Of a stretch of DNA of 64,000 nt, positions 1,029-55,329 are shown one piece after another. This stretch comes from Amphiura filiformis (lineage: Eukaryota; Echinodermata; Ophiuroidea; Amphilepidida; Amphiuridae). Position numbers and translations under genes: made by a program. The stretch spans positions 74,650,713-74,714,712 of the forward strand of contig NC_092628.1 of the NCBI RefSeq assembly GCF_039555335.1, in the 5' to 3' direction. Positions within the stretch are counted from its first letter, which is position 1. The number at the start of each line of letters is the position of its first letter. Below the pieces are notes generated by a model. That model saw only the letters and a list, made by a program, of their open reading frames with translations, was not told the origin of the DNA and did not search any database.

Positions 1029-4000
1029 TCGTGTGTTTTTTATGGACATCCGTGATCCAGTACGCTCCATGGAGATATGTGTGAGTCAATGTCCAGATGA
1101 GATGCTCAATACTAATGAAGAAGTCAAAGACTTTGCCACTGAAACTGGCTCAAGACTTTGTCGTTATGATATAGATACTAGCGAATATCCAACAGCAGAC
1201 CAAGGTTTGGATGGACCTTGTCCTGAAGTTGTTTATGAAAGGTATGAAAGCAAAAATCTGATATATAAGACTCGTTATTGACATATTTTGCATCAAAAGC
1301 ATTATTATTAGCAGTTAGCATATTACTGCAAAACAGACTTAATCTTTCTTCAGCTTCCAGACCATTAAGGTACCGGGTAACATTCTCTATTTTAAAGTTG
1401 TTATTTTAGCTGTTTTAATTTTTTGACTTGGTCAGCATGCCCTTTTGAATTTAATTCAGAAACTTCAATCTGTACAGCACATTGTAGGATTGGAGCTGGT
1501 AATTCATGGGGCCTCTTTATGAGAACTATATCTCATTTTTGAAACATTATAAACATATTCCAATTCATGTCAAAATTGTAGAACAAACTGTAAAATCAGA
1601 TGCTAAAATATGTTTTTTCCCATGTGTTTTTTTTTCTTCTCGTTTCCCATGCAGCAAAAATATTATCAATCGCTGTGTTCCTGTGCAGTTGGAAGAGTTT
1701 GTACGTGAATTTATTGATAACGTAATTGAGGCATTGAATTCTGCAGAGCTGATTTCTAAAGCTCTAGCTGATGTGTACATGGCAAGATGGGCTATCTTGG
1801 CCATGTGTGTTATTGCATTGGGTAAGTGTCACTTGAAATCAATGGTATAGCCAGGATTTTTTTAGAAGGGGACAAAGTTTAATGCAAATGGTCAATGAAG
1901 GCCTAAAAATCGAAAATATCACATCAGCCATCATTCCACGAGGGGGTGGGGGACAAGATGTTCTACAAGGGCAATGCAGGGTTTGATGTTATCATATTTG
2001 CAGGGTTTGATGTTATCATATTTGCAGGGTATATTAGCACAGCCATTCTCTTTACAATGCACTTTTTTTTTCATTTTCTGATTCTGCGAATTACAGATAG
2101 AGCCTTTAATTTATTACAGGGTTGGAAAAAAAATGAAATTGTGACTGTGACTCTCCTCAGTGACCAAGTTCTTTTTCACTATTTAAATTATCCCTATTTG
2201 TTTACTTTTCAGTTCTTGCCTTCCTAATGGTATTCCTGATTCACATTGTAGCACAGATAGTGGTGTGGTTGATATACATCATATCAGTTGTAGGGTCTAT
2301 TGGTAAGTATCATACAATGGACTGGGACAGTAAGGTTTTTGTGTGTTATTTGCTGCAATTTCAAAGAAGTTAAACCAGAAGAACTCTCACTCCATTATGG
2401 CTTCATGTTACTTTGCCATATTTGATTGTCAATCATGGGGATTCGTAAATGATAATGGTGTCATAATGCATGAGTATTACAATGTTTATGCATTTAGTGT
2501 ATAGCACTTGTTATATGCACCACATAGCTGTCGTCCTGCATCTATCGTCTCATATAACACAGGCGACATCATTATTTCTTGTGTAAAACAACTCGGCTTT
2601 GCCTTGTTGTTTTACTTAAAATAATGATGTCGCCCGTGTTGTATGAGACGATAGATGCACGACATGGGCTAAAACAATACCTTTATTCTCTAATTATAGC
2701 ATAGATAACAAAATGGTTGAATATGAATTGCATATATATTGCCCCTTCAGTAGTATACATTTGTAAGTGTAGCCATTCATTGCAACTGATCTTGCAATTT
2801 ATTTAATAGGGTTTAAATTAATTGCAACTCGATCAAAAGACATTGTATAACAACAGCAATAACATTTAGCCTATTTATTTGATGTTAACTAAAACATCCA
2901 ATCCTAAATTTGTACAATAGATGGGGATATTTGATCAAGATGGGAATGGAGACACATTTTGACTCAACAGAAGAAAAGTCAGCTCTTTAATTGGTAGTAT
3001 TGATAGCTGTCATTAATTGATTGGGCACACATTTTTCATTGCAATTATTATTATTAGTCATATCTATGTTGGATTTTTAGGGTGTGTGCAGATTGTCATC
3101 ATAGATACCGTAAAGATTCACCTCTTGACATAACTGGAATTTTAGGCACAGACTAAAAGTGCTCCGGTAAAAATCCCACCAGCAAATAAGGTCATAGACC
3201 CTTAATTCTTGAGATTTTCAGACGAGGGACCTCTCTGTTTGTATGTGAAATTTACCCATGGCAAAAGAGCCCAATTTTTATGGTATTAGAATTGATTATG
3301 TAACATTATACATGTATTACTCCTTTTGTAGCTGGTACTGTTGCCCTCTGGATAACATGGAAAATGAAGAAAGACATGTTTGAACAATTACCCGAGTTGG
3401 AACAACTTGATGCAGCTTCACGAAATGTCCAAGCTTTCCTCATATATTCTATATTGGCAACAGTGTTTACTGTAAGTATATGTTCTCAATGTACAAAAAT
3501 ATCATACTATATTGTACTAACAAAGAATTTATATCTGTTTAAAAACAAAAACATCCAGGTGCAAATCTGCACGCATTTTTTACAAATTTGCATAAAATTC
3601 ATTCAAGTATTATGGATATCCATCAAATTACTTAAGGCATTATCAGCCATGTTGTTTACATATCTACTTGTAATATATTAAAAACACTGGTATTCTTTCT
3701 TTTCAGGTCATCCTATGCCTTGTCATCTTGGTTATGAGGAAACGCATAGCATTCACTGTTGAGCTATATCATCAAGCAGGGAAAGCGTTATCAGCCATGC
3801 CATTATTACTGATACAACCTGTTTGGACATTCCTCATATTGGCAGTGTTTTTCATCTATGTGGCTGCTGTCTTTGTTTTCATATCTGCAACAGGTAAATT
3901 CTATGACCAATATGGGACCCAATTCACACCTAAGAAATTGCTTCATTCTATGAAGATTCAATGTGGATTAAAGATGGGAGTTTTCCTCCATGTTAATGCA

Positions 4001-7000
4001 TGTCTCTTTATTCAATCATCATTAACTTGAAGATGGAATGAACCTCATTTGATTTGCTTAAGGGCTCAGATAGCAACATTTTCACATATTTGTTGTGTGA
4101 GGAGAGTACAGCAGACATATCAAATTGCATTTTGAAAATAAGGAATGTCCTTCTGATATTAAATAATTTTGATTTTTGTTTTAATTCGTGATACAATTAC
4201 ACATTTTAAGGCAAATAATTACCAATTGATATTTTTGAAATTTAACAGTCCTTTGCAGTAAATTGTATAAATCTAATGATATGTACTTAAAGTGTATGTA
4301 GCTGGGATGAAAAGTCGTCAATCACATGAAAAGTTTGACCTGTCGTATTGAAGATTTAGGTCTTTTGGGGGGAAAATGTTTATCTTCAATATGAAAGGTC
4401 AAATTTTTTAATTGATGGTCAGCTTTATGGTTTCAGACATCTCTGTATGTCCCTTTCATGTATACTTGATTGAACACTTGCTATACTTGCTTGCATGTAT
4501 GTGATGTCATCTCTGTTTGTTTACTTTGGATATTTCATATCATTTTAGGGATGAATTAAAACTTACTAATTACAAAAACAGTTCTCTAATTTCAACAAAT
4601 TCTCTTTATGTAAGGGCCAGAGAGTCACTGCTTATTGTATTATGTATAGCAGCTCAAATATAATTATGCCTCATATTTGTGTAGCCTGAGGATAGCATAA
4701 GCCATCTGAAGAGGATGGGAATTGTTCAAATTTAATTTAAATTGAAAATGAGACCATGTAGGTAACTGGGGATTAATAAAAAAAAACAGTGCAAATAAAA
4801 TTAGTGTAAATTTTGGGTCCTTGTGCTTTTTTTGTTTCTCCATCTAAGGGTAATAGACTATTGGATAACAGCTTGGGTTTTAATTTTTGTTATTTGTTTC
4901 ATAATTAGATGCACCCATGTTGGATTTATCATTATCAGATGCATAAATTATCAAATGATAGAAATTTATTGTGTATTATAGTCTGCAGAAATGTTTGTAC
5001 TTCTTAATTTTGAGCATATTTGATTGTGGTAATTACAATTAATGCACAATTTTTGTTTCTTTTATTCAAAGGTCATCCCACAGTGATGAATGACACAGGA
5101 TATGTGACCTATGACCCTCCTTCACCTGTTAGACATTTTTGGTGGTATCATGCTGTTGGGTTTATCTGGACAGCAGAATTTATTTTGGCATGTCATCAAT
5201 TCGTCATTGCAGCTAGTGTGGCTGATTGGTACTTTACCAGGTAAGCACAGACTTTCAGCATAAAATGTGCAATTTAACTTATCTTGAGTTTCTCAATGTA
5301 CCCGTATGATATGTGCGAGACATCCAATGTTGTAACAGGTACAGGAAACAAAAACCAAATGTGTGATACACCTAATGATGTAATAGGTGTGTTCTGTTGG
5401 TCACTTTTGTTGACCTTCAGTTAGATCAGGACATTATAAAGGAATGGCAATCTCAGTCCTAGACCATAATTCTTTTTATGCAAGTGAACATCTTCAAGAA
5501 TTCAAAAGACTTGCTGCATACATGTAAGCATCAGCAATGAAAGTTGTAGCAAGAAAAGTATCACAGCTTCCATTTTCTTTGTAAATACAAGCGAAATTTC
5601 TAAACATTAAATATTGCTTATGCTCATCTTTCCCACAGAGAAAAGAAGAAATACAGTTCTCCAATCCTGAAAGCCATTGGAAGACTGACTAGCTACCATT
5701 TGGGTTCTATGGTATTTGGTGCATTCATTATTTTACTTGTGAAAATACCCAGAGCTATTCTGCTATACATTCAGTACAAGTAAGTTATTCGCCAGCGAAG
5801 TAGTTACATAACTCCCTGGTAACTGGATCGTGCACCTTTTTGGAATGAATAGTACATGCCATAGACTTTGTGTTGTGATCATTTCGATGATTTCGAACTC
5901 AAAAGCGTGATCCAGTTGACATGGTGATAATCGGATTACATGTAACACTTTCCTGGCAAATTGTTAAGAATTGACAGGATTTGCAAGGTGCCTAATTACC
6001 AAAGGCTGTAAGGCATGCAAAGAGAGAGAGAGAAAAGGAAAAGAAAGACTATATGTCAGGAAAGACGAGACTTGAGCAGCTTTTTGATGTACTATTGGTT
6101 TTTGGTTCACCCTGTTTGTCACTGAAAAAAGAATCAAGTCACATGATGCTACATGGCTTGTTAACAAATGAGATACTGATGTCTCATAACCTTATTCAAT
6201 CAGCTAATCAGTACCTCACTTTTGTGTTCACGCAGTTAAATGTAACCTATTTTTTGTAAAAAAAAATACTGTAGAAGATGATGTAATGATGAAAGTGAGG
6301 AAGTAAATGGGAGAGACTAGAAGAAAGGAATAAGGTTTCAGCAATTAGAATATCTTAAATAACACTAATGCATGTACCATATTTGGCCAAATAGTGTGCA
6401 CTGCCCAGGTGCAAAGTGAGATTTAAATTTCACATTGTATATATTTTTCTTCTGCAGGTTAAAGGACAGTGCAAATGAAGTAGCTAAGTGTGTTTTGAAG
6501 TGTTTATCTTGCTGCCTTTATTGCTTAGAAAAATTCCTGAAATACATCAATGAAAATGCCTACATCATTATAGGTAAGTTAGCAGTAGAAAATGATACCA
6601 AGTGACATTTTGTTTAAGTATCTACATATGTAATGCAATTTACAATTTAACCAGCCAGTTGACTGCAAAGTTATTAGCTGTGTGTGAAACTGTTGTGCAT
6701 GTTTGACTGGCTGACATTTTGAATGTTCATCATTAGGTTTTTAATGCAGCATGCATGGCTGTGTTGTACCCATGCACAGGCACACAGTCATGATCACTAG
6801 TATACTAGGACACTGAGCTATTATGATACTGGCTTTAGATTAATCATGAACTATTTGTCTTTTGCAAACATTTACAGCTATTGAAGGAGGTGGTTTTTGT
6901 AACTCTGCTCGAAAGGTAAGTGCATTGGATATCATGTTTTATTGATGTCTTGACGTGGGGTTAATTTCAGAACAATTGTCCTTTAAGTCATCATCCAAAA

Positions 7001-27200: not shown

Positions 27201-30000
27201 TCAAAATTGTCAACAGTAATTTAAGGTGGTACTACACCCCTGGCCAATTTTGTGCTTATTTTTGCATTTTTCTCAAAAATTACAGCGCATTGGTGACAAG
27301 TTAGTATATTTTAAGGGCAAGGACTACAACTACTGCACTGAAAATATTTATTTCAGCACAGACAACAGTTGTGGAGATACAGTCAAAAATGAGGGAAAAC
27401 CAATATTTGATCAATAAATTAATAACTACTTGTCTTGAGTCGATGAAATTCCAGTGTAGTAACTGGATTCCTTGCCCCTATAATATATACATAACTTATG
27501 TTACCAGTGTTTTTACTAGTTTTTGAGAACAATGAAAAAATAGTCACAAATTTATCAAGGGGCGTAGTACCACCTTAAACGTGTCAAAATGTGTGCTTTA
27601 GTGTGTTTGGGGTATGAGCTCAAATTGGCATAGAACAGGTAACAACCAATATTTAGTAACACAAATACTGCACTGATTATATACCACCACGACAAAAAAA
27701 ACTGACTGAAAGCATATATATTAATAATGCTTAAAAACATTAACTTGAAATGATCAGACTGTTAAAAATCAATATAGTATGGAGGATAAAATCTGGCCAT
27801 TTCAGGTGGATCACACCAAAAACTAATGGAGACCAATCATTTTGAAACAACCTAATTAGATGGGCTACTCATCTTTGTAATATTTTATATGGAATCTATA
27901 TATCAAGTCAACTCACCTCCTGTATTTCACTATGTTGAAATTCCTCAAGAATGTCCAGCACACTGTCTGCACCAATGGCACCAAGTGCTTCACCTGGTAT
28001 TTAAAAAAGCGCAGAGAAATATATTTAATAAATAGAGCTGTGATATGTGCAAATTTGTTTAGAATTTAAAAAAGCACTAAACTTAAACAAAGATTAAATC
28101 CAACCATTCAACCTCTATCTCCCTGAGCTGTGCTAGGTTTTATGAGAATAATACATGGTACATGTACATATACTCAGGGGCAGTTGCAGTTCTACAAATT
28201 TTGAGGACTTCTCCAAGTTGCAGGAAGTGCTATAGGGTGTCTCCAGTGTAAACTGTTTTCATTGTTGCAAAATATTAATATTGACAATAATTGACAACCT
28301 GTTTGACCTATCCGTTAATAACGATTGTGACATCAATTTTGAAATGCTATTCATTTGAATAACCACAGCTGCCAATAAAATAAATTACAATGCGAACAGA
28401 CAACCTTGAAATTGACTAACAGTAACACTAACCAATCCCAAGTGAGTAGGATTCACTTCCGCATTTTTAATATACAGATTGACATTACATAAAATACACA
28501 TTGTTGTACATGCGGGCATTCTTCATACAAGTATACATACAATCGTCAATTTGTTGGCAGAGCTGTGTTCATTCAAATGAAATTTCAATTATAATTCATG
28601 ATATCATATAAGATTCATATGTTTCAAGATCATCATAACACTTTCAACTACACTGACATGACTGAGTTTCAGAGAAGAACGGCAGTCCCTTGCTCAGATT
28701 GACACGAGCGCCCTGTTAATGAGCGACATACACAGACAGAGCTTTGTGTTGACTTCAAGGGTGCCGATCTGCGCCAACCAGCGATTTGACACAAATTTGG
28801 CCAATCAGATTATTGGTCTGTTGCTATGCTTGGTTGGTTGGTATAGTTGACTGGATATCCCGCCTTTTATCAGGTGCACCACATAAAATATGTGTAAATT
28901 TGTAGAAGTTCACATAAAAACACCGATGCATACGAAAACGTTTGCCACACCACCACAACAATGTTCATGCAATATCAATAAAAAGTACAAAGTAATTGCA
29001 GCAGACCACCACCAAAGTAAAAAGTAACAAGGAGCAGGTCAAAGTTATACAGCCACCAGTACAGTAGAAAAAATAAAATAAGCGGAGTACATTGTACATT
29101 AGAGCTTGTGCATGTGTGTAACATGAATATGATTGTCAGACAATTGATTCAGCCAATCAGAACTAGTCGGTGTTATACACTTTCAGTTTCCCATGCGTTT
29201 GAATGGGAATTATTTTGCCTACTCGCCACAAGTTTAGGGAGCACATTTCTTCAATATTTTGACAAGTTGACATCAAATGTTCTATTCAATATTGTTTGCC
29301 AATGTCTTTTGCCAATAGTACGTCCAAAGTTGTAATTTTGTGTTTTTGATCGCAAAGATCGGATATTTTTATTCCCGATTCCAATTCTGAACCCTTCGCA
29401 AGGGTGCAGAAATCGGTGAAACTTTGAAGATAATTTTGCCTTTTTGGACACTAAAATGCATTCGATCCTTAATTTTGTTTCAACCGAGTCTTATTAGCAA
29501 GCACAATTTTATATACATTGATGAAATTTTAAAGATTTTTTTTTCAAATTTCTGACCTGCGCAAATCGTTAAGTGTGTATTTCACATTGATATCCAAAAT
29601 GGCGTAAGCCAGTCCTAAATATACATACATGTAGGTACGGCATATATAGGACTGGCAAGCGAGTCTATTCTTCTCTGACAAAAACTGTAATTTAGTGTAA
29701 AGACAGTTTATTCGATTTCTCACCTGCTTCATGTCTAACAATTGTCTCCTGATTCTCATCTCTCAGAACACTCTCCAAAGCAGGTATAGCACCCTTATCT
29801 TGCATTTGACCCAAACAATACGCACATTCATGTTTGAGAAGGGCTGAAGAATCACCAAAACATTTACTGATGCAGTCAATAGCGGTCTGTCCACCAAGAT
29901 TACGCAATGTAAACAATGCCCGAAATCGACCTGCAAGGGGCTCTTTGGGATCATTTAAAACATCCCCAATTTTTCTTACTGTTTCATAATCTGTATTCAT
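24227..30000 (-). CDS. DOHH: Deoxyhypusine hydroxylase, complete
   Basis: This enzyme is a HEAT-repeat diiron monooxygenase that completes hypusine formation on eIF5A by hydroxylating deoxyhypusine in the cytosol. Five exons in transcript order: 29724-30000 (ATG), 27917-27993, 26943-27195, 24858-25010 and 24227-24396 (TAG), all GT-AG, 930 nt, 309 aa; the human enzyme has 302. Two half-molecules of HEAT repeats are visible. All four His-Glu metal-ligand pairs are present: H57-E58 ([14 protein letters not shown]), H90-E91 ([13 protein letters not shown]), H214-E215 ([14 protein letters not shown]) and H247-E248 ([11 protein letters not shown]). The linker keeps [10 protein letters not shown] and the C-terminus [12 protein letters not shown]. 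The start is the first Met and aligns with the family start. Introns 2 and 3 each hold a copy of one TTAA-flanked MITE, and intron 3 a long hairpin. It is convergent with SLC44A1. Certain in family, expected to be active. Confidence 0.96.
25163..25510. mobile_element. Foldback element with near-perfect 114-bp arms
   Basis: The left arm 25163-25276 (starts GAAGTTTGGAATTAAATC) and right arm 25397-25510 are reverse complements with two differences that I count. They enclose a spacer of 120 bp without an ORF. Such symmetry implies a young insertion or arm conversion. It lies in DOHH intron 3 and would form a long hairpin in the pre-mRNA. Confidence 0.85.
26121..26477. mobile_element. TTAA-flanked MITE, family B, copy 1
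   Basis: It begins TTAAGGGGTACTACACCCCT and ends with the complement (GGGGTGTAGTACCCCCTTAA). The arms continue into imperfect pairing over roughly 140 bp. TTAA at both ends suggests a piggyBac-type target site. The interior is about 80% like copy 2 (AAGGACTACAACTACTGCAC, AACCAATATTTGATCAATAA). It is in DOHH intron 3. Confidence 0.8.
26809..26902. repeat. Inverted repeat beside DOHH exon 3
   Basis: GAATCTTGGTCAGCGATCAA on the left pairs with TTGATTTTTGACCAAGATTC on the right. The pair is bracketed by direct repeats AATGACACG (26790-26798 and 26913-26921), possibly a 9-bp target duplication. The right flank ends about 20 bp from the donor of DOHH exon 3. Confidence 0.55.
27221..27578. mobile_element. 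TTAA-flanked MITE, family B, copy 2
   Basis: It has the same ends (TTAAGGTGGTACTACACCCC and complement) and the same orientation as the element at 26121-26477, with an alignable interior. It is in DOHH intron 2, starting 25 bp upstream (in transcript sense) of the acceptor of exon 3. Two members so close, one in each intron beside exon 3, could be independent insertions or a local duplication. Confidence 0.8.
29166..29290 (+). repeat. Interspersed repeat, family C, copy 1
   Basis: A block running CACTTTCAGTTTCCCATGCG, TTTGAATGGGA, then CATTTCTTCAATATTTTGAC and GACATCAAATGTTCTA recurs at 55330-55460 and 56185-56345 in the same order and orientation. No ORF or terminal repeats were recognised. 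It lies in DOHH intron 1 (antisense to that gene). Confidence 0.65.
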
Positions 30001-30630
30001 GATGACTAGAAGTCTCCTCTTGCTGATTGTAAATAGATTTATGAGTTGTTTATGGATTTGCTACATAACGTGTGTCGGATCGCTAGAAAACATGTGTTTT
30101 GTTATGATTTTGTAATCCCTTTAAACCAACGTTTCTAGTAAGACTCAGATATCAATTTTTTTCTAGGTTAAATTTATCACAACTTGAAGTTTCATAACAG
30201 TTGTTAAACACGTTGTTATTTTCTAATTTTCTTGTAACAATATCACAATAAAATACAAAAGTTCTAATAATGTACTAAATGCCAAAAACATTTTCCAAAT
30301 GGAGATAGCTTTTTTCTATTTTAGAAACATAATTGATCATGGGTCATGGGGTCATCTCAGGTCAAATTATTTTCGATGCTGAAGTTCACGAAGGTGGGCG
30401 TTTTTCACCTAAAACACCTGAAAGCTATGTAAGATTTAAACGATTGAGTCAGTGTATGCATAATATTGTAAATAATAAATAAGCGAATGAAGAAAACAAT
30501 TTAAATATGATTGAAAAAAGCGTTTAAATTGAACAAGTTTAAACTAAAGTGATAAGCTTTTGCAATGTTTGGTTTCATGCATGGTTTTAATGTTACAATA
30601 ATAAACAATTGTACGGTACTCAAATAGGGG
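30001..30630. other. DOHH 5' flank
   Basis: This holds the presumed promoter and 5' UTR of DOHH, read leftwards. I see no clear TATA box, CpG-rich block or divergent gene. The flank is AT-rich and runs into the inverted-repeat element starting at 30631. Confidence 0.4.
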
Positions 30631-32539: not shown

Positions 32540-33506
32540 ATTTACAGCCCATTCCCGCTTGTCCCTTCTCATACTTTTCTTGACTTCCTTGTCTTTGCTC
32601 TGGTATTCGTCTTTTAAGTTCTGTTTGATTCTGCTTGACTTTGTCTGTTCAATGTCTCTCTTCAGCTAATTTATCCTCTCTACTAAATCCCATGATTCCT
32701 TGCTGATCCATGGTTTCTTATCCTTCTTTTTGTACCCGAGAACCTATGCAGTTTCTTTGTAAGCATTCTTAAAATGTTGCCACTTCTTCTCTACACTAAC
32801 ACTCTCTTCTACATCCTCATAATCTTGGAGTACATCAAATCTATTTTTGAGTTCAATTTTGAAATTTGATCTGATGGTAGTCTGTTGGAGTTTGGTTGTA
32901 TCAAATTTCCTTCTTGTCACTTATGGTTGTTGCTTTCTTTTCAACTTAATCTTGGGTTTGGTACGAACTAGTTGATGACTCCATCTGGAGAAACTCATGT
33001 TTGCTTGTGTATCTGTCGATGAGGAAAAATTGTTCCAGTAATCACAAGGTTATTTAGATTACAAAAGTCGACAAGCCTCTCTCCATTGTCATTCCTCACT
33101 CCTAGTCCATGTTTTCCCATGATGCTTTCACAGCCTTCATTATCCTCTCCAACCTTAGCATTAAGGTCTCCCATCACAATAAGTACGTCATGTTTGTGAA
33201 TGCTATATACAATTGCTTGCAGTTGGTCATAAAAATTGTCTTTATCCTCTTCATTTGTTTCATTGGTGGGTGTATATACTTGAAGGATTGAGAATTTCAA
33301 AAATTTCGAAAAGAATCTTGCAAGACTTGCATAAATGATCCTATCGTTTATTGGTTTCCATTCTATCAATGCCTGCTCTGCCTTATTCGACATCATTATT
33401 GCAACTCCGTGTTGATGTAAATTATCTTCTCTCCCAGAAAAAATCACACTTTCTCCTGTGCTCAACTTGACCTTTCCATGCCCTGTCCATCTACACTCAA
33501 CTTAAC

Positions 33507-34363
33507 GGCGAGTACCCGCTAGTCCGAAGGACCGCTAGTCCGAAGGTTCGTTAGTCCGAAGGTTCGCTAGTCCGAACACGTATTGCAATGGAGGACGGAC
33601 GGTCGCTAGTCCGAATTTGCAAAAGGTTCGCTAGTCCGAAAAAAGGTTCGCTAGTCCGAAGGTTCGCTAGTCCGAAGGTTCGCTAGTCCGAATTTATTAA
33701 AAGGTTCGCTAGTCCGAATTGTTAATCAGGTTCGCTAATCCGAATCAAAAAAAGGTGCTCTAGTCCGAATTTTAAATAAGGTCCGCTAGTCCGAATTTTA
33801 TATAAGGTTAAGCTAGTCCGAATGATAAATAAGGCCAGCTAGTCCGAATTCTAAATAGGTCCGCTAGTCCGAATTTTCTTTAAAGAACCTGATCAGCGCC
33901 ACCATACACCGGTCTCAAAATGTATTGGAGGTGTTTGCCTGAGTAGGTGCACACAGGTTCACAACATTGTTCATGTTTTGCATTGTTTCTTTAAAAGTAA
34001 TGATGGCAAGTACATAAAAGTATACATTTTCAGAAAGGAAACAATGCAAATAACCCAATAAGTTTCCAAATCGATGAAAACTGTATATTTATGTTCTAAA
34101 GACACAAAAAGTATACATGGTATAGATGCTGTTTTTCTAAAGTATTTGAATATTTATTCCTTTTAAAAATTACTGATGTAGGTTTTGCAGATTGAATGAA
34201 ATTGCAATCAAATATACACCATCGCCTCAATGGTAATGGAAATAATTCAAAACAACAACGAGAGCTAGGCCTATTATGAATGTCTAAAATACAAACTTTT
34301 CTATTTATTTTATTTCTTCATTGATTAAATCTTTCTCTATAAATCCTTTTTCCTTTAATTCAT

Positions 34364-34425
<62 letters not shown>

Positions 34426-34913
34426 TTCCTTCCTTCCTTCCTTCCTTCCTTCCTTCCTTCCTTCCTTCCTTCCTTCCTTCCTTCCTTCCTTCCTTCCTTC
34501 CTTCCTTCCTTCCTTCCTTCCTTCCTTCCTTCCTTCCTTCCTTCCTTCCTTCCTTCCTTCTTTCCTTTCTTTCTTTCTTCCTTCTTTCCTTTCTTTCTTT
34601 CTTAAATTCGGACTAGCGGACCTTATTTAAAATTCGGACTAGCGAACCTTATTCATAATTCGGACTAGCGAACCCTAAATCAAATTCGAATTAGCGGACA
34701 TGATTTTAAATTCGGACTAGCGAACCTTATATATAATTCGGACTAGCGAGCCTTATTTAAAATTCGGACTAGCGAACCTAGTTAAAAATTCGGACTAGCG
34801 GACCGTATTTAGAATTGAATAGAGAACCTTCGGACTAGCGGACCTTCGGACTAGCGAACCTTCGGACTAGCGAACCTTCGGACTGGCGGGCCTTCGGACT
34901 AGCGGGCTGTAAC
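33507..34913. mobile_element. Foldback (TU/FB-like) transposon with satellite-built inverted arms
   Basis: The left arm (33507-33890) has 16 copies, and the right arm (34604-34913) 13 inverted copies, of GGTTCGCTAGTCCGAA. In both arms the outer units are packed at 16 bp and the inner units are separated by about 10-bp AT spacers, so the arms mirror each other in architecture. The centre holds about 470 bp of unique AT-rich DNA and, asymmetrically, the CTTT/CTTC microsatellite. CAACTTAAC flanks the element at 33498-33506 and 34914-34922, and removing the element rejoins a retrotransposon coding region. Long arms of tandem subunits with 8-9-bp duplications define Drosophila FB and sea-urchin TU elements. 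No transposase is encoded. Confidence 0.88.
34363..34603. repeat. (CTTT)n/(CTTC)n microsatellite
   Basis: About 240 bp of pyrimidine tetranucleotides shift from CTTT to CTTC and back. It lies inside the foldback element against its right arm. The open frame across it (Ser/Phe/Leu/Pro only) is an artefact. Confidence 0.97.
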
Positions 34914-35300
34914 CAACTTAACTCCCAAGACATCAATGTCATATCTTTCCATCTGCTTTGCAAGCTGAGCAGATTTTCCAATGGTGTATAGTGTTATTAC
35001 ATTCCAACATCCTATGTTAGTGATTACTTTCGGCCTGGTTAACGACGTAGTCGGCCACTGAACGTCCTTTCGGCTTTGATTCAGAAGCCTCATGCTGTCC
35101 ACACACATGATATTATCATCTTCTGGTATCTGGACCATCGCCTCACCAACTCCATTTCCAGTGTTAGCTGTATTTATAGTTTCTTTGATTCTTGCAGTTT
35201 CCGTAACAAAGTTTTGAACTGGACGGGTTGTTGGCCCACCGCAGTAGGTTTGTTTTCAGGGTTTTCCTTCCCTTAGCGATATCCTTGTTAGCCTAGAACC

Positions 35301-36260
35301 GCAAGGAACTTGTTTCCAGGGTGCACCAGCTTGGAGGTGAGGTTGACTTGAGTGTTCTAGGGTTCATCAGCAGACTACTGCTTTTCGCTTTTCACCCATA
35401 TTGGGCTAGCTGACCTCAACATCGCTCGCTGTGATGCAAAGCGCTTGAGCACCCCTTACATGTACACAGGTACCCCCTACTCTAAAGTCCAACAGGATTG
35501 ACTTTTGAAGAAAAGTTCTGGCACCACATCTTTGTTTCTGTTTCATTTCTTTTTCTTTATTTTTGTTCAGTGATTCAATACAAGTCTAGCTTTCTTTTAA
35601 ACTGTAAGAAGCTTCTGTGCTCAATCACACTCGATGGTACCATTGGGGTATGGGAGAATCATCTTGGTCTTCCCCCTCCACCCCCTTTCCCAGTGTTCGA
35701 AATATGCCTCAAAAAGTTACAGGCCAGCCGGGCTTGACCTTAAAAAGTTACCGGCCAGCCGGACCGGCAACTATAGATGCCAGTCAGAAAAGTTACCGGC
35801 CAGGCCAAAAAGTTACAGGCCAATGGCCGGCTGACCGGCCCTATTTCGAACGCTGCCCTTTCCCATGCAATGGCAATATAAAATAAACCCTACAAGACAA
35901 TTATAGTGCTAACTACTAGGGCCTTTTGATTGTGGCATGTAGAGTCTTACGAACATCGCATACACATTCAACTAATATTTCGATCATATGTATTAAAAGA
36001 CAGGAAACATTGTTTTGTCACAAAGACAGCACCTTAACTCAAGCATTGATTTTGCATGGTATGAAACATGGTAAGTCAATTAACTAGTGGGCTGTATAAT
36101 TATCTGAGACTCTGAGTTACAATGTACCTTCTAAAAATATGTTGCAGTGGTGTATAATTTATTTATTCTGTTTGATTCATCCTTGTTTAGGTTATGGAGT
36201 AGCCTTGTGTTGACACTGATAAACTTGGATGCAGTAAGATGACCAGCGCCCTCTACTACA
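35301..36260. other. Intergenic stretch with a short GGCCAGCCGG-type repeat
   Basis: At 35700-35850 the motif AAAAAGTTACCGGCCAGCCG occurs about four to five times with variation (AAAGTTACAGGCC and similar), making several overlapping frames. The remainder to 36260 has no recognised gene. A pyrimidine-rich acceptor-like TTCATCCTTGTTTAG ends at 36190, just before the small membrane ORFs, and might begin their transcript's last exon. Confidence 0.45.
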
Positions 36261-36515
36261 ATGCCATTGTACTCCAAGTGGATCGGCACTATCCTTGACA
36301 ACGGTGCTCTCAAGTACATCTGTTTTAATCATATGATCACTACGTACATCCTCACCAGTTTGATGATGTGTTTGATGACATTGATAAATACTACTACTCC
36401 ACGTTTGACTAACATTTCAATGTCGGCACTGTTATCATTGTTTATAGTAACTCTCGCCATCAAGTTTGCATTTCAAATGGCTCATGGATTTAAAATTCAC
36501 TTTGACATCAATTGA
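36261..36515 (+). CDS. Small two-helix membrane protein, tandem copy 1 (84 aa)
   Basis: I do not recognise the family. The ATG is preceded by an in-frame stop at 36240. The protein has a short N-terminus (residues 1-19, with TILDNGALK), a hydrophobic helix (about 20-43), a polar turn TTTPRLT (44-50), a second helix (about 53-75) and a short polar tail. The same order, with aligned T(I/V)(I/L)D, N and TT(S/T)xRL(T/S), occurs in the next two ORFs. That shared conservation across otherwise diverged DNA is the main evidence that it is coding. It could also be one exon of a larger gene; no intron signal is needed. Confidence 0.6.
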   Translation: MPLYSKWIGTILDNGALKYICFNHMITTYILTSLMMCLMTLINTTTPRLTNISMSALLSLFIVTLAIKFAFQMAHGFKIHFDIN

Positions 36516-36721
36516 TGCTATGTTTGTACATTTGAATATGACATGCAGTACACAAGCAGCAAAGATCTAAAACGCAGCGCAAACCAGAATTAAATGCTTT
36601 CATGGATAAACAGCAAAGATCCTGAGAAGTCAAACTCTAGTTTTAATCCATCACCAAATGGGCTGATTTGTGAGACTTGTAACTATACTTACAAGATTGT
36701 TGGTCCAGTCCATGTTCAGGC

Positions 36722-37033
36722 ATGCTCTTGGTGTACCTAGAGCTCACTGAGACAATTATAGATAGATTTGGCCTAAAACACATCTTCTTTAACTACGTCT
36801 TTTCCTCTTGTATGATCTCTGGTCTTGTCTTGTTTTTGATGACCATTGTGAACACCACCTCCCCACGCCTTACCATTGGTGCTATTATGTCCTTGTTGAC
36901 CATCCTCATGGTCAGTCTTACCATTGAATGTGCCCATCAGATTATATTTTGGATGTACATCAGTCGTGCACCGTTTTCTCTGATAGAACCAGACCCGGTA
37001 GAATCACATCAGTTTGTACATGGACATCATTGA
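36722..37033 (+). CDS. Small two-helix membrane protein, tandem copy 2 (103 aa)
   Basis: The ATG is at 36722; the frame stays open back to a stop at 36680. TETIIDRFGLKHIFFNY leads into a first helix ending MTIVN, then TTSPRLT, then a second helix (MSLLTILMVSLTI). A longer tail, rich in Pro, Glu and His, makes this the longest copy. It is 206 bp from the stop of copy 1 and shares with it the FxN-helix-NTT(S/T)PRLT pattern. No AATAAA is seen between the copies, so one transcript carrying several copies, or splicing, is possible. Function unknown. Confidence 0.62.
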   Translation: MLLVYLELTETIIDRFGLKHIFFNYVFSSCMISGLVLFLMTIVNTTSPRLTIGAIMSLLTILMVSLTIECAHQIIFWMYISRAPFSLIEPDPVESHQFVHGHH

Positions 37034-37161
37034 CAACATCTTAAAAGATATTTGTGTATACTTCAACTTTCCAAAACAAAAGTGTCTTGCAGATGGACAT
37101 CTTTATTCTGCCTTAACATTTCACTTAAAGATAGTGATGTGATAATAATCATCCAGATACT

Positions 37162-37440
37162 ATGTGTCCAAACATTTGTAACACTCTATATTCCGAGACG
37201 GTAATAGACAAACTTGGACGTAGATTTGTTGTAATGAACTATTCCTTTTCCCTATTTATGGTCTTCATTTTAATGTTATTTTTATTCGCTATTGCAACAA
37301 CATCGACTCGGTTGTCTGTGGCAGGACATTTGTGTTTTATGCTTACTGTCATTGCATCTATGATCATCGAATTTTCTCATCAGGTCACGTACTGGGTACA
37401 TATGCATGAACGAAGGATATACTGTCAAGTTAAAAACTAA
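37162..37440 (+). CDS. Small two-helix membrane protein, tandem copy 3 (92 aa)
   Basis: The ATG is at 37162, with an in-frame stop at 37135. SETVIDKLGRRFVVMNYSF precedes a first helix (MVFILMLFLFAIA), then TTSTRLS, then a second helix (LCFMLTVIASMII), then EFSHQVTYW. The last motif aligns with ECAHQIIFW in copy 2 and with KFAFQMAHG in copy 1, so similarity spans the whole protein. The stop is only 113 bp before the C9orf72 ATG on the same strand. The pair therefore share a very compact intergenic space, or these ORFs sit in the 5' leader of the C9orf72 transcript. Confidence 0.62.
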   Translation: MCPNICNTLYSETVIDKLGRRFVVMNYSFSLFMVFILMLFLFAIATTSTRLSVAGHLCFMLTVIASMIIEFSHQVTYWVHMHERRIYCQVKN

Positions 37441-37553
37441 TTGTGATGCAACTTTAAGCCAACTACTTGATGCTTTATAAGTTATACAGTTGGTTTCCTT
37501 GTGAAATTAAAACTTTTCTCATATGAAGTGCAGCTATCAATTCAGAGTTGAAA

Positions 37554-40500
37554 ATGAGTGATACCAAAGAAGACAAGAGTGTGGAGGAACTGTTGCCTGT
37601 TGGCCAGTTTCTACCATCAGAGTTAATGAATGAAAATCCTGAAACTGAAACAAGAACTCCACATTCTCCACCAGTAACTTCAAATGGAGATGGGCATCCA
37701 AAAACACTATCTTCCCAATTGGAAGAAATTGATCCTATGAATGTGAACTTGACTCCCACCGAAGCTGACCAACAGTCTTCCAAAACTCATCAAGATGGGG
37801 CTGATGACAAATCAGACTCTTCCACTGAATATCAAGACACTATTAATAATGGTAGCAACAACACCAGTGGGTGTGTGGAAGAGGTGCCTTATAATAAGGA
37901 TGGTGGATTAGACTCTTCTCAAGAGACTGCGAATGGTTTGCTTGAAGGTGAAAACACTACTGTGCTTGCAAATGAATCTGTCGCAGAGTCTCCCAATGAA
38001 GGAGATGGTACATCAGACTCTGCTTATCAAGACACTACTAGTGATTGTGATAACAAAGATGCAAACACTACTTTGCATGCAAATGGATCCGTTGATGAAC
38101 ACATGGCTAATACTGAAATGGACAGATCAGACTCCTCTACGCAATATCAGGACACTGCTGAATCTCATGAAGAAGTAAATGAAACTCTACATAATAAAGA
38201 ATCTGTTGAAGAGACTCTTAATGAAAGAGATGAAAATTTAGTCACCACCCCCACTTCACAGTATCCTATGTTTAGCTCACACACAAGTCCTGAGAAGGTA
38301 TCTCCAGTGTCATTGAATTTTGAATTTGACAGACCCAGAGACACTTGCATCAAAATTGTTCTACCCAACACACATGACTGTCCAGTATATGCCCTTGTGC
38401 TGTGCTCATGGGATAACATCCTAGGTCCAAATGCTCAATATGTCTGGGGAACGGAACAAAAGCATGGTTTCACCCCAGATATGTTAAATTATCTATCCAC
38501 TCACACCCTAACATCAAGCGATCAGCCGGAGAATACAGTGGACACAAAGATGTTAATTCTGAAAGAACGAGGGATCTTAGTAACATCGTTTTTGTTCAGT
38601 GGGTACGACGGAATTGAAAAGACAGTGTTTTCATTGTCTTTGATAGTGCCTTATGTGGAATGCCAATGGTATTTACCATTGCATGAATTCTGTGTGTCAA
38701 GACTGAGCATGATGATTGGAAAGCTGCGTGTATTACAGGATAAACACAAAGAGGAGGTGAGTTTACAGAAACATGGCTTAAAGTTTGCACTGTTAAAAAT
38801 CTGCTTCACAATTGGCATAAATGGGTCTGCTCTGGTTTATTAATATGTAATATCTCATACTATTACATGTTCCAGTATCTACTGCCTGTGTTTACAAGTT
38901 GAGCCTTATTTGCAAATTCAACTGCCTTTGTCATATGAGAATAAAGTTTGTACTTGTAATCTTACATGTTTTTATTTGCACATATTTATATACTTAAAGG
39001 GGGATTTCGTGATCCTAGCATCCTCTTTTTATGACATTTTTCAGTAGATATGTCCACAAAAAAGTTTATTCCCAAAATTTCAGTTGATTCCAATTTTGCG
39101 TTTGCACTGCTCCATAGGCCACTATTGTAATTTTGTTCTGGTATACCAGAACGAAATTCAAATTTGGCGATATTTTTGCTAAACAAATTAATCTAAAAGA
39201 AATATTTGGTACATTATAAACATTATGTAGCCAGAGGTATCCAGTGGTATAAAAATCTGAACTTTTTTGAGAAAAGTGGGGGGATGATGCTGTGGATCAC
39301 GAAATGCCCTTTTAATACAAAAATTATGTCAAAATCCAAATTTTGAAATCACTGACTGACATTTCAAAGCTTATAAGAGGGACATATGTAAGAGAAATAG
39401 GACAAGATAATCTATTGTTGGGCTAAATTTAATATTTCTAAAACATGTTAGATATTTTTGTTTTGTATTAAATGTTAATTAAAGCCTTTGAGCAGCACAG
39501 GAGTCATTAAAATAACACTTGTGACAGATGTTATTAAAATAACTCATGTGACAGGAGTTATTAAAATGACTCATGTGTTGCAAGTTAAACAAGTGATTTT
39601 CTTTGTTACTGATCTAATACCCATTTTGGCTTTTTTCTTTCCACTTCAAACTTACAGGTTGGGGAACTTGCAATCAAGTCCTTCAATGAAGATGTGCCTA
39701 AATTCATAGGTGTCCTCACTTTACTTAAGACATCAAGCCCTGGACCAACAATACAGGTGAGTAATTAAATGAATTTATTAAGTGCTTTCATATGATACAA
39801 TATTATCCCAAATCTTGGGTAAAATCTAAATACAAACAAAACATATCAAGACAAAAGTGAGGTGGACCTTACCATCCTTCTGTCAACCGACAGTCTAGCC
39901 TACAACATTTGCTTGTAGTTCCAAAGTGATCCTCAAAGACATACAATCATACATGGATCATGCTTTCTCTGTTGCAGCACCAAAGCTTTGGAACAGCTTG
40001 GCGATACCTCTACGGAATGCCCAAACAGTTAACCAAGTCTCTTTTGAAGACCCACCTCAAGACATCTAGTTTTTATTCATTATGTTGTAATTTTAAGGGT
40101 GATCTGTAATATTTAATTTTATGTTTATAAATGTTGGTGTGTAAACACATTCAGGAAACATATCACTTCCATTTGTAACACATTATATGAGTTCATATTA
40201 TTATTATTGAATTAACTCAAGTTACCGTATCTTATATTTTCAGTTGAGTGATACAGTGTTTGCTGCCGGACTAGACAACACTTTAGATGTGCAATTCACT
40301 AGATTGTAAGTGAGACAAAATAAATATGTTTTTAAATCATAAATATTTAAATGGTAGTAGTAGCTTTTCTTCCCAATTGTCACTTTTGACTTAATGAAAG
40401 CAAATATATAAAAGTCATGTCATAGTATTAAGGCGGCTCGGCAGGGAGCATGACCTTGCGGTGTTGGCACTCAAATATTGAGATAAATAAAGGTGTCACA

Positions 40501-54201: not shown

Positions 54202-55329
54202 GAATTTTATATCAAACTTGATGATTGGATATGGTGGCCTCCTGTAGCTTCCTGTATAGTTTTGTGTCATCTTATTTGCATTTTTATGAATATTAATGAG
54301 CTTATTTGCATCCACTCTCTGCAGCTTAAATGCAACAGATCAACTTCTAACTTGGGATTTAGTGGCCTAATATGATGTATAGTTTCGGGGCATGTTATTT
54401 GCATATTAATGAGCTTATTTGCATATTATTTTTTATTAACAAACCTTTATTATTTACACACCTTTGTGTGGGGACCACCTTAATTACGAACCGCGTAATT
54501 CTAGTTTCTCTTTGATTTGACACCACTCAGGATCTTGGCAGTTCAAAATATAAAAAGGACCCGATTACTGCATGAGTATTAAATTTTCATCGATTTGCAA
54601 TCGATTGGTGGTATTTTTTTGTTTATAATTATAATTCAATTAATTTATTGGAATTTCTTTTTTTATGTTTCTGTGTTTTTTATTTTTACAAGATATCACA
54701 CAAACAAGAATTACAAAGGAATCACACACAAAATTACAAAAGATCATCATATTAAAAACAAAAAAATTGCACAAATTTAACACCAATTATACCATCCAGC
54801 AAGAAATGCTGAAAAAACATAATATACCTTTATCATGCAGCCATCAAAACTTTATAAAATAGATACATCAAAAATTACAAACCAAATCTCCATTTACGGA
54901 AATGGGCCCCTGGGCAGAAAGTTTGTATTTACCCTTGATAGCAATAACTGTTTCCCATTGGAATTTCTTGGTGGTGTGCGCCCGGAATGACCCCTGACGC
55001 ACAGCCCGTCTACCAACCAAAGTGCACGCACGTTTGTTTGATTTTCCGACGTATCTGAACATCAAATTACATGAATTCATGCGGAAAATGGCTGAATATG
55101 TCGGAAATGTGAAGTGTTGAGTGATTCACGGATCACCAGGAAGTAGAAATGATGATATTTGGCCACTTTCATGGATTACCAGGTTAGTTTAAATTAGTTT
55201 TTAAACTGGCCCTGCACTGCAAGTAGTCCGAATAAATTATTCAATAATCAGACCCAGAACAAAATATTACTTTCTGACATGATCGTGTACTGGGTCTGAA
55301 CTGTTTCCATATGAAATCTTGATGGCAAA

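Follow-up and report, generated by a model that had tools for sequence, protein, structure and literature searches.

Small membrane-protein genes restricted to one lineage are known to form tandem clusters, and tarsal-less/mille-pattes is a polycistronic gene for small peptides. The locus described here resembles both in that several related short frames follow one another in tandem on one strand. It differs from tarsal-less/mille-pattes, which consists of short-peptide repeats, in having frames of 84–103 aa whose predicted products are two-helix proteins, known here from sequence alone. The other described system that comes near is the major facilitator (MFS) sugar/solute transporters, which have about 12 transmembrane helices and carry the motif D(K/R)xG(R/K)(R/K) in the loop between helices 8 and 9. 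The likeness to the MFS family Sugar_tr (PF00083) consists of a D(K/R)xG-type motif immediately preceding the first of two helices, in a weak match of one of the three frames; with two hydropathy peaks in 84–103 aa, however, none of them could be a full transporter.

The cluster lies in a window of 64,000 nucleotides (the whole stretch of Amphiura filiformis DNA that was analysed) and is made up of the following frames, given here with the gene next to them.

36261-36515, plus strand: ORF A, 84 aa from ATG to stop, predicted two-helix membrane protein
36722-37033, plus strand: ORF B, 103 aa from ATG to stop, predicted two-helix membrane protein
37162-37440, plus strand: ORF C, 92 aa from ATG to stop, predicted two-helix membrane protein
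37554-38756, plus strand: first coding exon of C9orf72, with its splice donor at 38757, outside the small-protein family

The three small frames are all on the plus strand, each in a phase of its own, with gaps of 206 nt between A and B and 128 nt between B and C. The open reading frames bore out the coordinates and the lengths of 84, 103 and 92 aa given in an earlier, sequence-only reading of this DNA, and also the distance of 113 nt that it had noted between the last stop, which ends at 37440, and the C9orf72 ATG at 37554.

Homology of the three frames and selection on their proteins

As judged from their sequences, A, B and C are mutually homologous. In blastp comparisons within a database of these three proteins, with seg and the composition correction turned off, E values of 3e-17 (A–B), 1e-16 (B–C) and 3e-7 (A–C) were obtained. 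A tblastn search of the whole window linked A with B and B with C at E 6e-12 to 2e-11 and did not list the A–C pair, whose relation is supported by the blastp value and by the neutral simulation and omega described below. The motifs T(I/V)(I/L)D, TT(S/T)xRL(T/S) and (F/H)Q, proposed in the sequence-only reading, were all found in the alignment, reading TILD, TIID and TVID, then TTTPRLT, TTSPRLT and TTSTRLS in the turn, and finally FQ, HQ and HQ in A, B and C, respectively. Thirteen columns were invariant in all three proteins (M1, Y5, T11, D14, N24, L35, L39, T45, T46, R49, L50, I68 and Q73, in B numbering). The Asn that was said to end the helix stands just before the TT in A and B; in C the alignment has a gap there. 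When the family profile was run against the 2190 stop-to-stop frames of at least 20 aa in the window, only A, B and C came above the inclusion threshold, the next-best frame (54644-54859, plus strand) reaching E 0.11.

The DNA between the copies had been called unrelated. This applied to six of the seven local flank comparisons, some of which share one intergenic stretch, with scores like those of shuffles; the comparison of the 5' flanks of A and B was marginal, its score being reached by 9 of 200 shuffles. The coding DNA was more similar than all 200 shuffles for A–B and B–C, and for A–C it did not exceed shuffled sequence (130 of 200 shuffles reached its score). Related coding sequences in A–B and B–C together with essentially unrelated flanks point to an old duplication, whose traces are now confined essentially to the coding parts. 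A short upstream piece at 36218-36234 resembles part of C (82% over 17 nt), probably by chance.

In every pair the third codon positions were the least alike and the second positions the most alike, which is the mark of coding sequence (identities at first, second and third positions of 0.51/0.80/0.28 for A–B, 0.57/0.68/0.37 for B–C and 0.37/0.65/0.28 for A–C). Nei–Gojobori counts gave pN of 0.35–0.49 and pS of 0.79–0.90, synonymous differences being saturated. Omega was estimated via a custom-written pairwise GY94 maximum-likelihood fit as 0.058 (A–B), 0.090 (B–C) and 0.085 (A–C), values that are rough because dS is saturated, and omega = 1 was rejected for all three pairs (2ΔlnL of 28.8, 20.4 and 11.9 in the same order as given in the preceding brackets for A–B, B–C and A–C). 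The sequence-only reading had ascribed the similarity to protein constraint and had named a dN/dS near 1 between the copies as the sign that would speak against it; the values of 0.06–0.09 side with constraint. In the off-frame controls for the A–B pair, from which 14 and 6 codon pairs containing stops were dropped, omega came to 1.4 and to a runaway high value, with no purifying signal, which ties the signal to the frame proposed. In neutral simulations with matched nucleotide differences, the frame stayed open in 4–13% of cases, and the observed BLOSUM score was reached in none of the 5000 simulations run for each of the three pairs.

With dN/dS below 1 in all three pairs, A, B and C make up a predicted protein-coding family under purifying selection. 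We consider it fairly probable that they are three tandem paralogous genes for two-pass hairpin membrane proteins of 84–103 aa, which diverged long ago while strong purifying selection acted on them. Each gene would most simply be one coding exon with its own ATG and stop.

Leader signals and the adjacent C9orf72 gene

The first coding exon of C9orf72 matched the human protein (PDB 6lt0_C) at E 1.9e-21 and Pfam PF15019 at E 1.6e-10, and a Pfam search with A, B and C gave no match to this C9orf72-like profile. The C9orf72 encoded here has a long N-terminal extension (37554-38369), the match to the human protein setting in at its residue 273 and at residue 20 of the human sequence; SDSSTEYQDT, SDSAYQDT and SDSSTQYQDT units are contained in the extension. 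The relation of A, B and C to C9orf72 is taken as adjacency only, and adjacency is no evidence of shared function. Among the literature matches listed, no title dealt with such small genes beside C9orf72.

Candidate processing signals were scored with generic splice matrices, drawn up from general knowledge and calibrated solely on the C9orf72 sites (nine donors of 5.6–13.0 and nine internal acceptors of 5.5–12.1, the later exons having been chosen by eye). The signals around the small frames were as follows.

36071-36190, plus strand: possible 5'-UTR intron of 120 nt upstream of A, with donor ATGGTAAGT (score 10.0) and acceptor TTGTTTAGG (score 7.8)
36704-36719, plus strand: possible splice acceptor with 2 nt between its end and the ATG of B (score 8.0)
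36589-36594, plus strand: possible poly(A) signal ATTAAA after A (chance 0.14 per 80 nt)
37506-37511, plus strand: possible poly(A) signal ATTAAA after C

The tight spacing of the four genes on a single strand raises the question of whether a single pre-mRNA carries all of them, or B and C at the least, as cistrons to be separated by trans-splicing or translated in the C9orf72 leader. Such an arrangement, which we regard as unlikely, would agree with the good acceptors upstream of A (at 70 nt) and of B (at 2 nt), both sites of the possible leader intron falling among the C9orf72 sites in score, with the presence of ATTAAA after A and after C and its absence between B and C, and with the purine found at position -3 of all four ATGs. 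It is weakened by the low acceptor scores reached at best within 80 nt ahead of C (4.0) and of C9orf72 (4.4), which lie below those of all nine internal C9orf72 acceptors, and by the frequency of such sites, since an acceptor of at least 5.5 occurs within the upstream 80 nt at 35% of random places. A strong acceptor is expected before each downstream cistron of a trans-spliced operon, and only that of B qualifies, those of C and C9orf72 being too weak. Hence, a four-gene trans-spliced operon with C9orf72 is not supported; a single message carrying B and C is possible. The window gave no Rfam match at the gathering score and no tRNA in an ARAGORN run with the bacterial code.

Known families and predicted structure

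The sequence-only reading knew of no family with this pattern, and the Pfam, NCBIfam and PDB sequence searches agree with this. No Pfam family cut-off was passed by A, B or C, and the best NCBIfam match had an E value of 0.19. The family profile found no PDB sequence up to E 10, and PDB searches with single proteins returned weak helical matches only (best E 0.12 for B and 2.4 for C). Likewise, none of the 37 pattern matches in IMG/VR and none of the 49 in prokaryote genomes was confirmed as a relative. The weight of this result is limited by the collections covered, namely non-eukaryote genomes (IMG/VR and prokaryotes) and family and structure libraries (Pfam, NCBIfam and PDB), and the family is possibly lineage-restricted.

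The two-helix design put forward earlier is supported by the hydropathy of all three proteins, in each of which two peaks exceed 1.6 over 19 residues. Two AlphaFold models of low confidence, made from the three-sequence alignment with B and C as targets, also support it. Helices were placed at residues 2-44 and 48-82 of B (mean pLDDT 61.7) and at residues 4-45 and 49-91 of C (mean pLDDT 67.8), with pTM values of 0.38 and 0.40, respectively. Modelled from so few sequences, they support a hairpin and nothing finer. A Foldseek search of the PDB with the B model gave no match at E ≤0.001 and 60 matches up to E 10.

The Sugar_tr match of C (residues 3-83, E 0.0024, 17.3 bits) suggests another origin, in which A, B and C would derive from an MFS sugar/solute transporter, or be what remains of one, beginning with the loop 8-9 motif and continuing through TM9–TM10. 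We hold this to be very unlikely. None of ten segment-shuffled versions of C reached E 0.0024 with any family, and in a profile–profile comparison with four E. coli MFS transporters the segment IIDRFGLK was placed on LVDRWGRK of galP, the D(K/R)xG(R/K)K site, with P 0.048. The score of C nevertheless falls short of the cut-off of 22.3 bits, A and B have no such match, and that of C is lost when its core alone or a hand-made family consensus is used. Moreover, with other families one of the ten shuffled versions reached E 0.0046 and two reached ≤0.014 (the second at 0.013), and 3 of 60 column-shuffled profiles outscored the real profile in hhalign against the four transporters. An MFS origin was rejected, as it did not stand clearly beyond the controls in the Pfam, PDB sequence, shuffling and hhalign analyses.

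Exon boundaries, surrounding repeats and proposed function

The frames had also been described as intronless. In A, the tail from the end of helix 2 to the stop (36479-36515) contains no GT, so that A ends in its own stop, which closes its coding sequence. For B and C the best donors in the tails scored 4.0 and 4.9, against 5.6–13.0 for the nine C9orf72 donors. Within the frames, several sites score in the C9orf72 range: a donor-like site at 36911 in B (6.5) and acceptor-like sites at 36986 in B (7.2) and at 37324 (7.8) and 37383 (8.0) in C. Splicing from 36911 to 37383 would keep the frame and fuse residues 1-63 of B to the 18 C-terminal residues of C; an in-frame splice from B to C is therefore possible by score, at about the rate of chance. 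Each kb of the window has on average 2.75 donors and 4.05 acceptors scoring at least 6, a density at which a frame of this size would carry roughly one such site by chance. Some of the segments could accordingly belong, as exons, to a single gene that is larger or alternatively spliced (B joined to the end of C would be one case), and the tandem, closely spaced arrangement of repeated coding units would suit such a gene. We give this reading a slim chance, as A terminates its own coding sequence and the B–C join would remove the conserved IExxHQ that closes helix 2 of B together with most of C, both of which have been kept by selection.

It is extremely improbable that the frames are open by accident, in a tandem repeat without coding function or in DNA derived from a transposon: transposon and repeat DNA does lie directly upstream (33.0-35.9 kb), but the codon-level constraint, with omega far below 1, largely refutes this unless the alignment is wrong, no tandem repeat was called by TRF at 35-38 kb, and the flanks are essentially unrelated.

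The upstream DNA contains a foldback-type transposon at 33507-34914, whose arms consist of CGCTAGTCCGAA-type repeats in tandem, with the opposite orientation at the far end (62-nt arms, 95% complementary), and with a 239-nt CTTC microsatellite inside. AACTTAAC is found at both of its edges (33499-33506 and 34915-34922) and may be an 8-nt target duplication; chance alone would produce this 8-mer 3.8 times per window. On the minus strand, at 32995-33501 and 34899-35255, lie pieces of a LINE endonuclease reading frame, apparently split by the foldback element; searched against Pfam PF14529, the first gave E 2.8e-4, below the cut-off, and the second gave no match. A GC-rich local repeat upstream of ORF A, at 35716-35803, holds three copies of GTTAC(C/A)GGCCAG within 90 nt (0.03 expected per whole window, with one mismatch allowed). 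Farther away, a HEAT-repeat coding exon lies on the minus strand at 29692-30060 (Pfam HEAT_2, E 1.1e-8), which we take to resemble deoxyhypusine hydroxylase, and an exon of a choline-transporter-like gene is found at 3674-4030 (Pfam PF04515, E 7.9e-14). Together with the LINE pieces and a C9orf72 gene that has introns, these two exons would by themselves mark the window as most likely of animal origin.

If A, B and C are three tandem paralogous genes, as we favour, the two predicted helices of each protein would be joined by the polar turn and both termini would face the same side of the membrane. The conserved polar residues (B numbering) are D14 before helix 1 and N24 at its start, and E69, H72 and Q73 at the end of helix 2. 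The Glu at 69 is present in B and C, and A carries Lys and Phe at 69 and 72. In a hairpin all these positions would come to one end, near the side of the termini, where they may form contacts within or between hairpins and so stabilise the hairpin itself or an oligomer. Most likely, the proteins would not be enzymes; they would work in oligomeric form or assist a larger membrane protein as accessory subunits.

It is highly improbable that they represent an undescribed animal family of two-pass hairpins that was tandemly triplicated, is co-transcribed with C9orf72 and shares with it a pathway of membrane traffic or of the lysosome. Gene finders easily overlook small membrane proteins, and the three predicted here, in a single genome stretch, are supported by selection at the protein level. 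Without a link to C9orf72, they would be one more uncatalogued family of small genes; if co-transcribed with it, they would be a first genetic neighbour to test for C9orf72, a gene linked to ALS and frontotemporal dementia.
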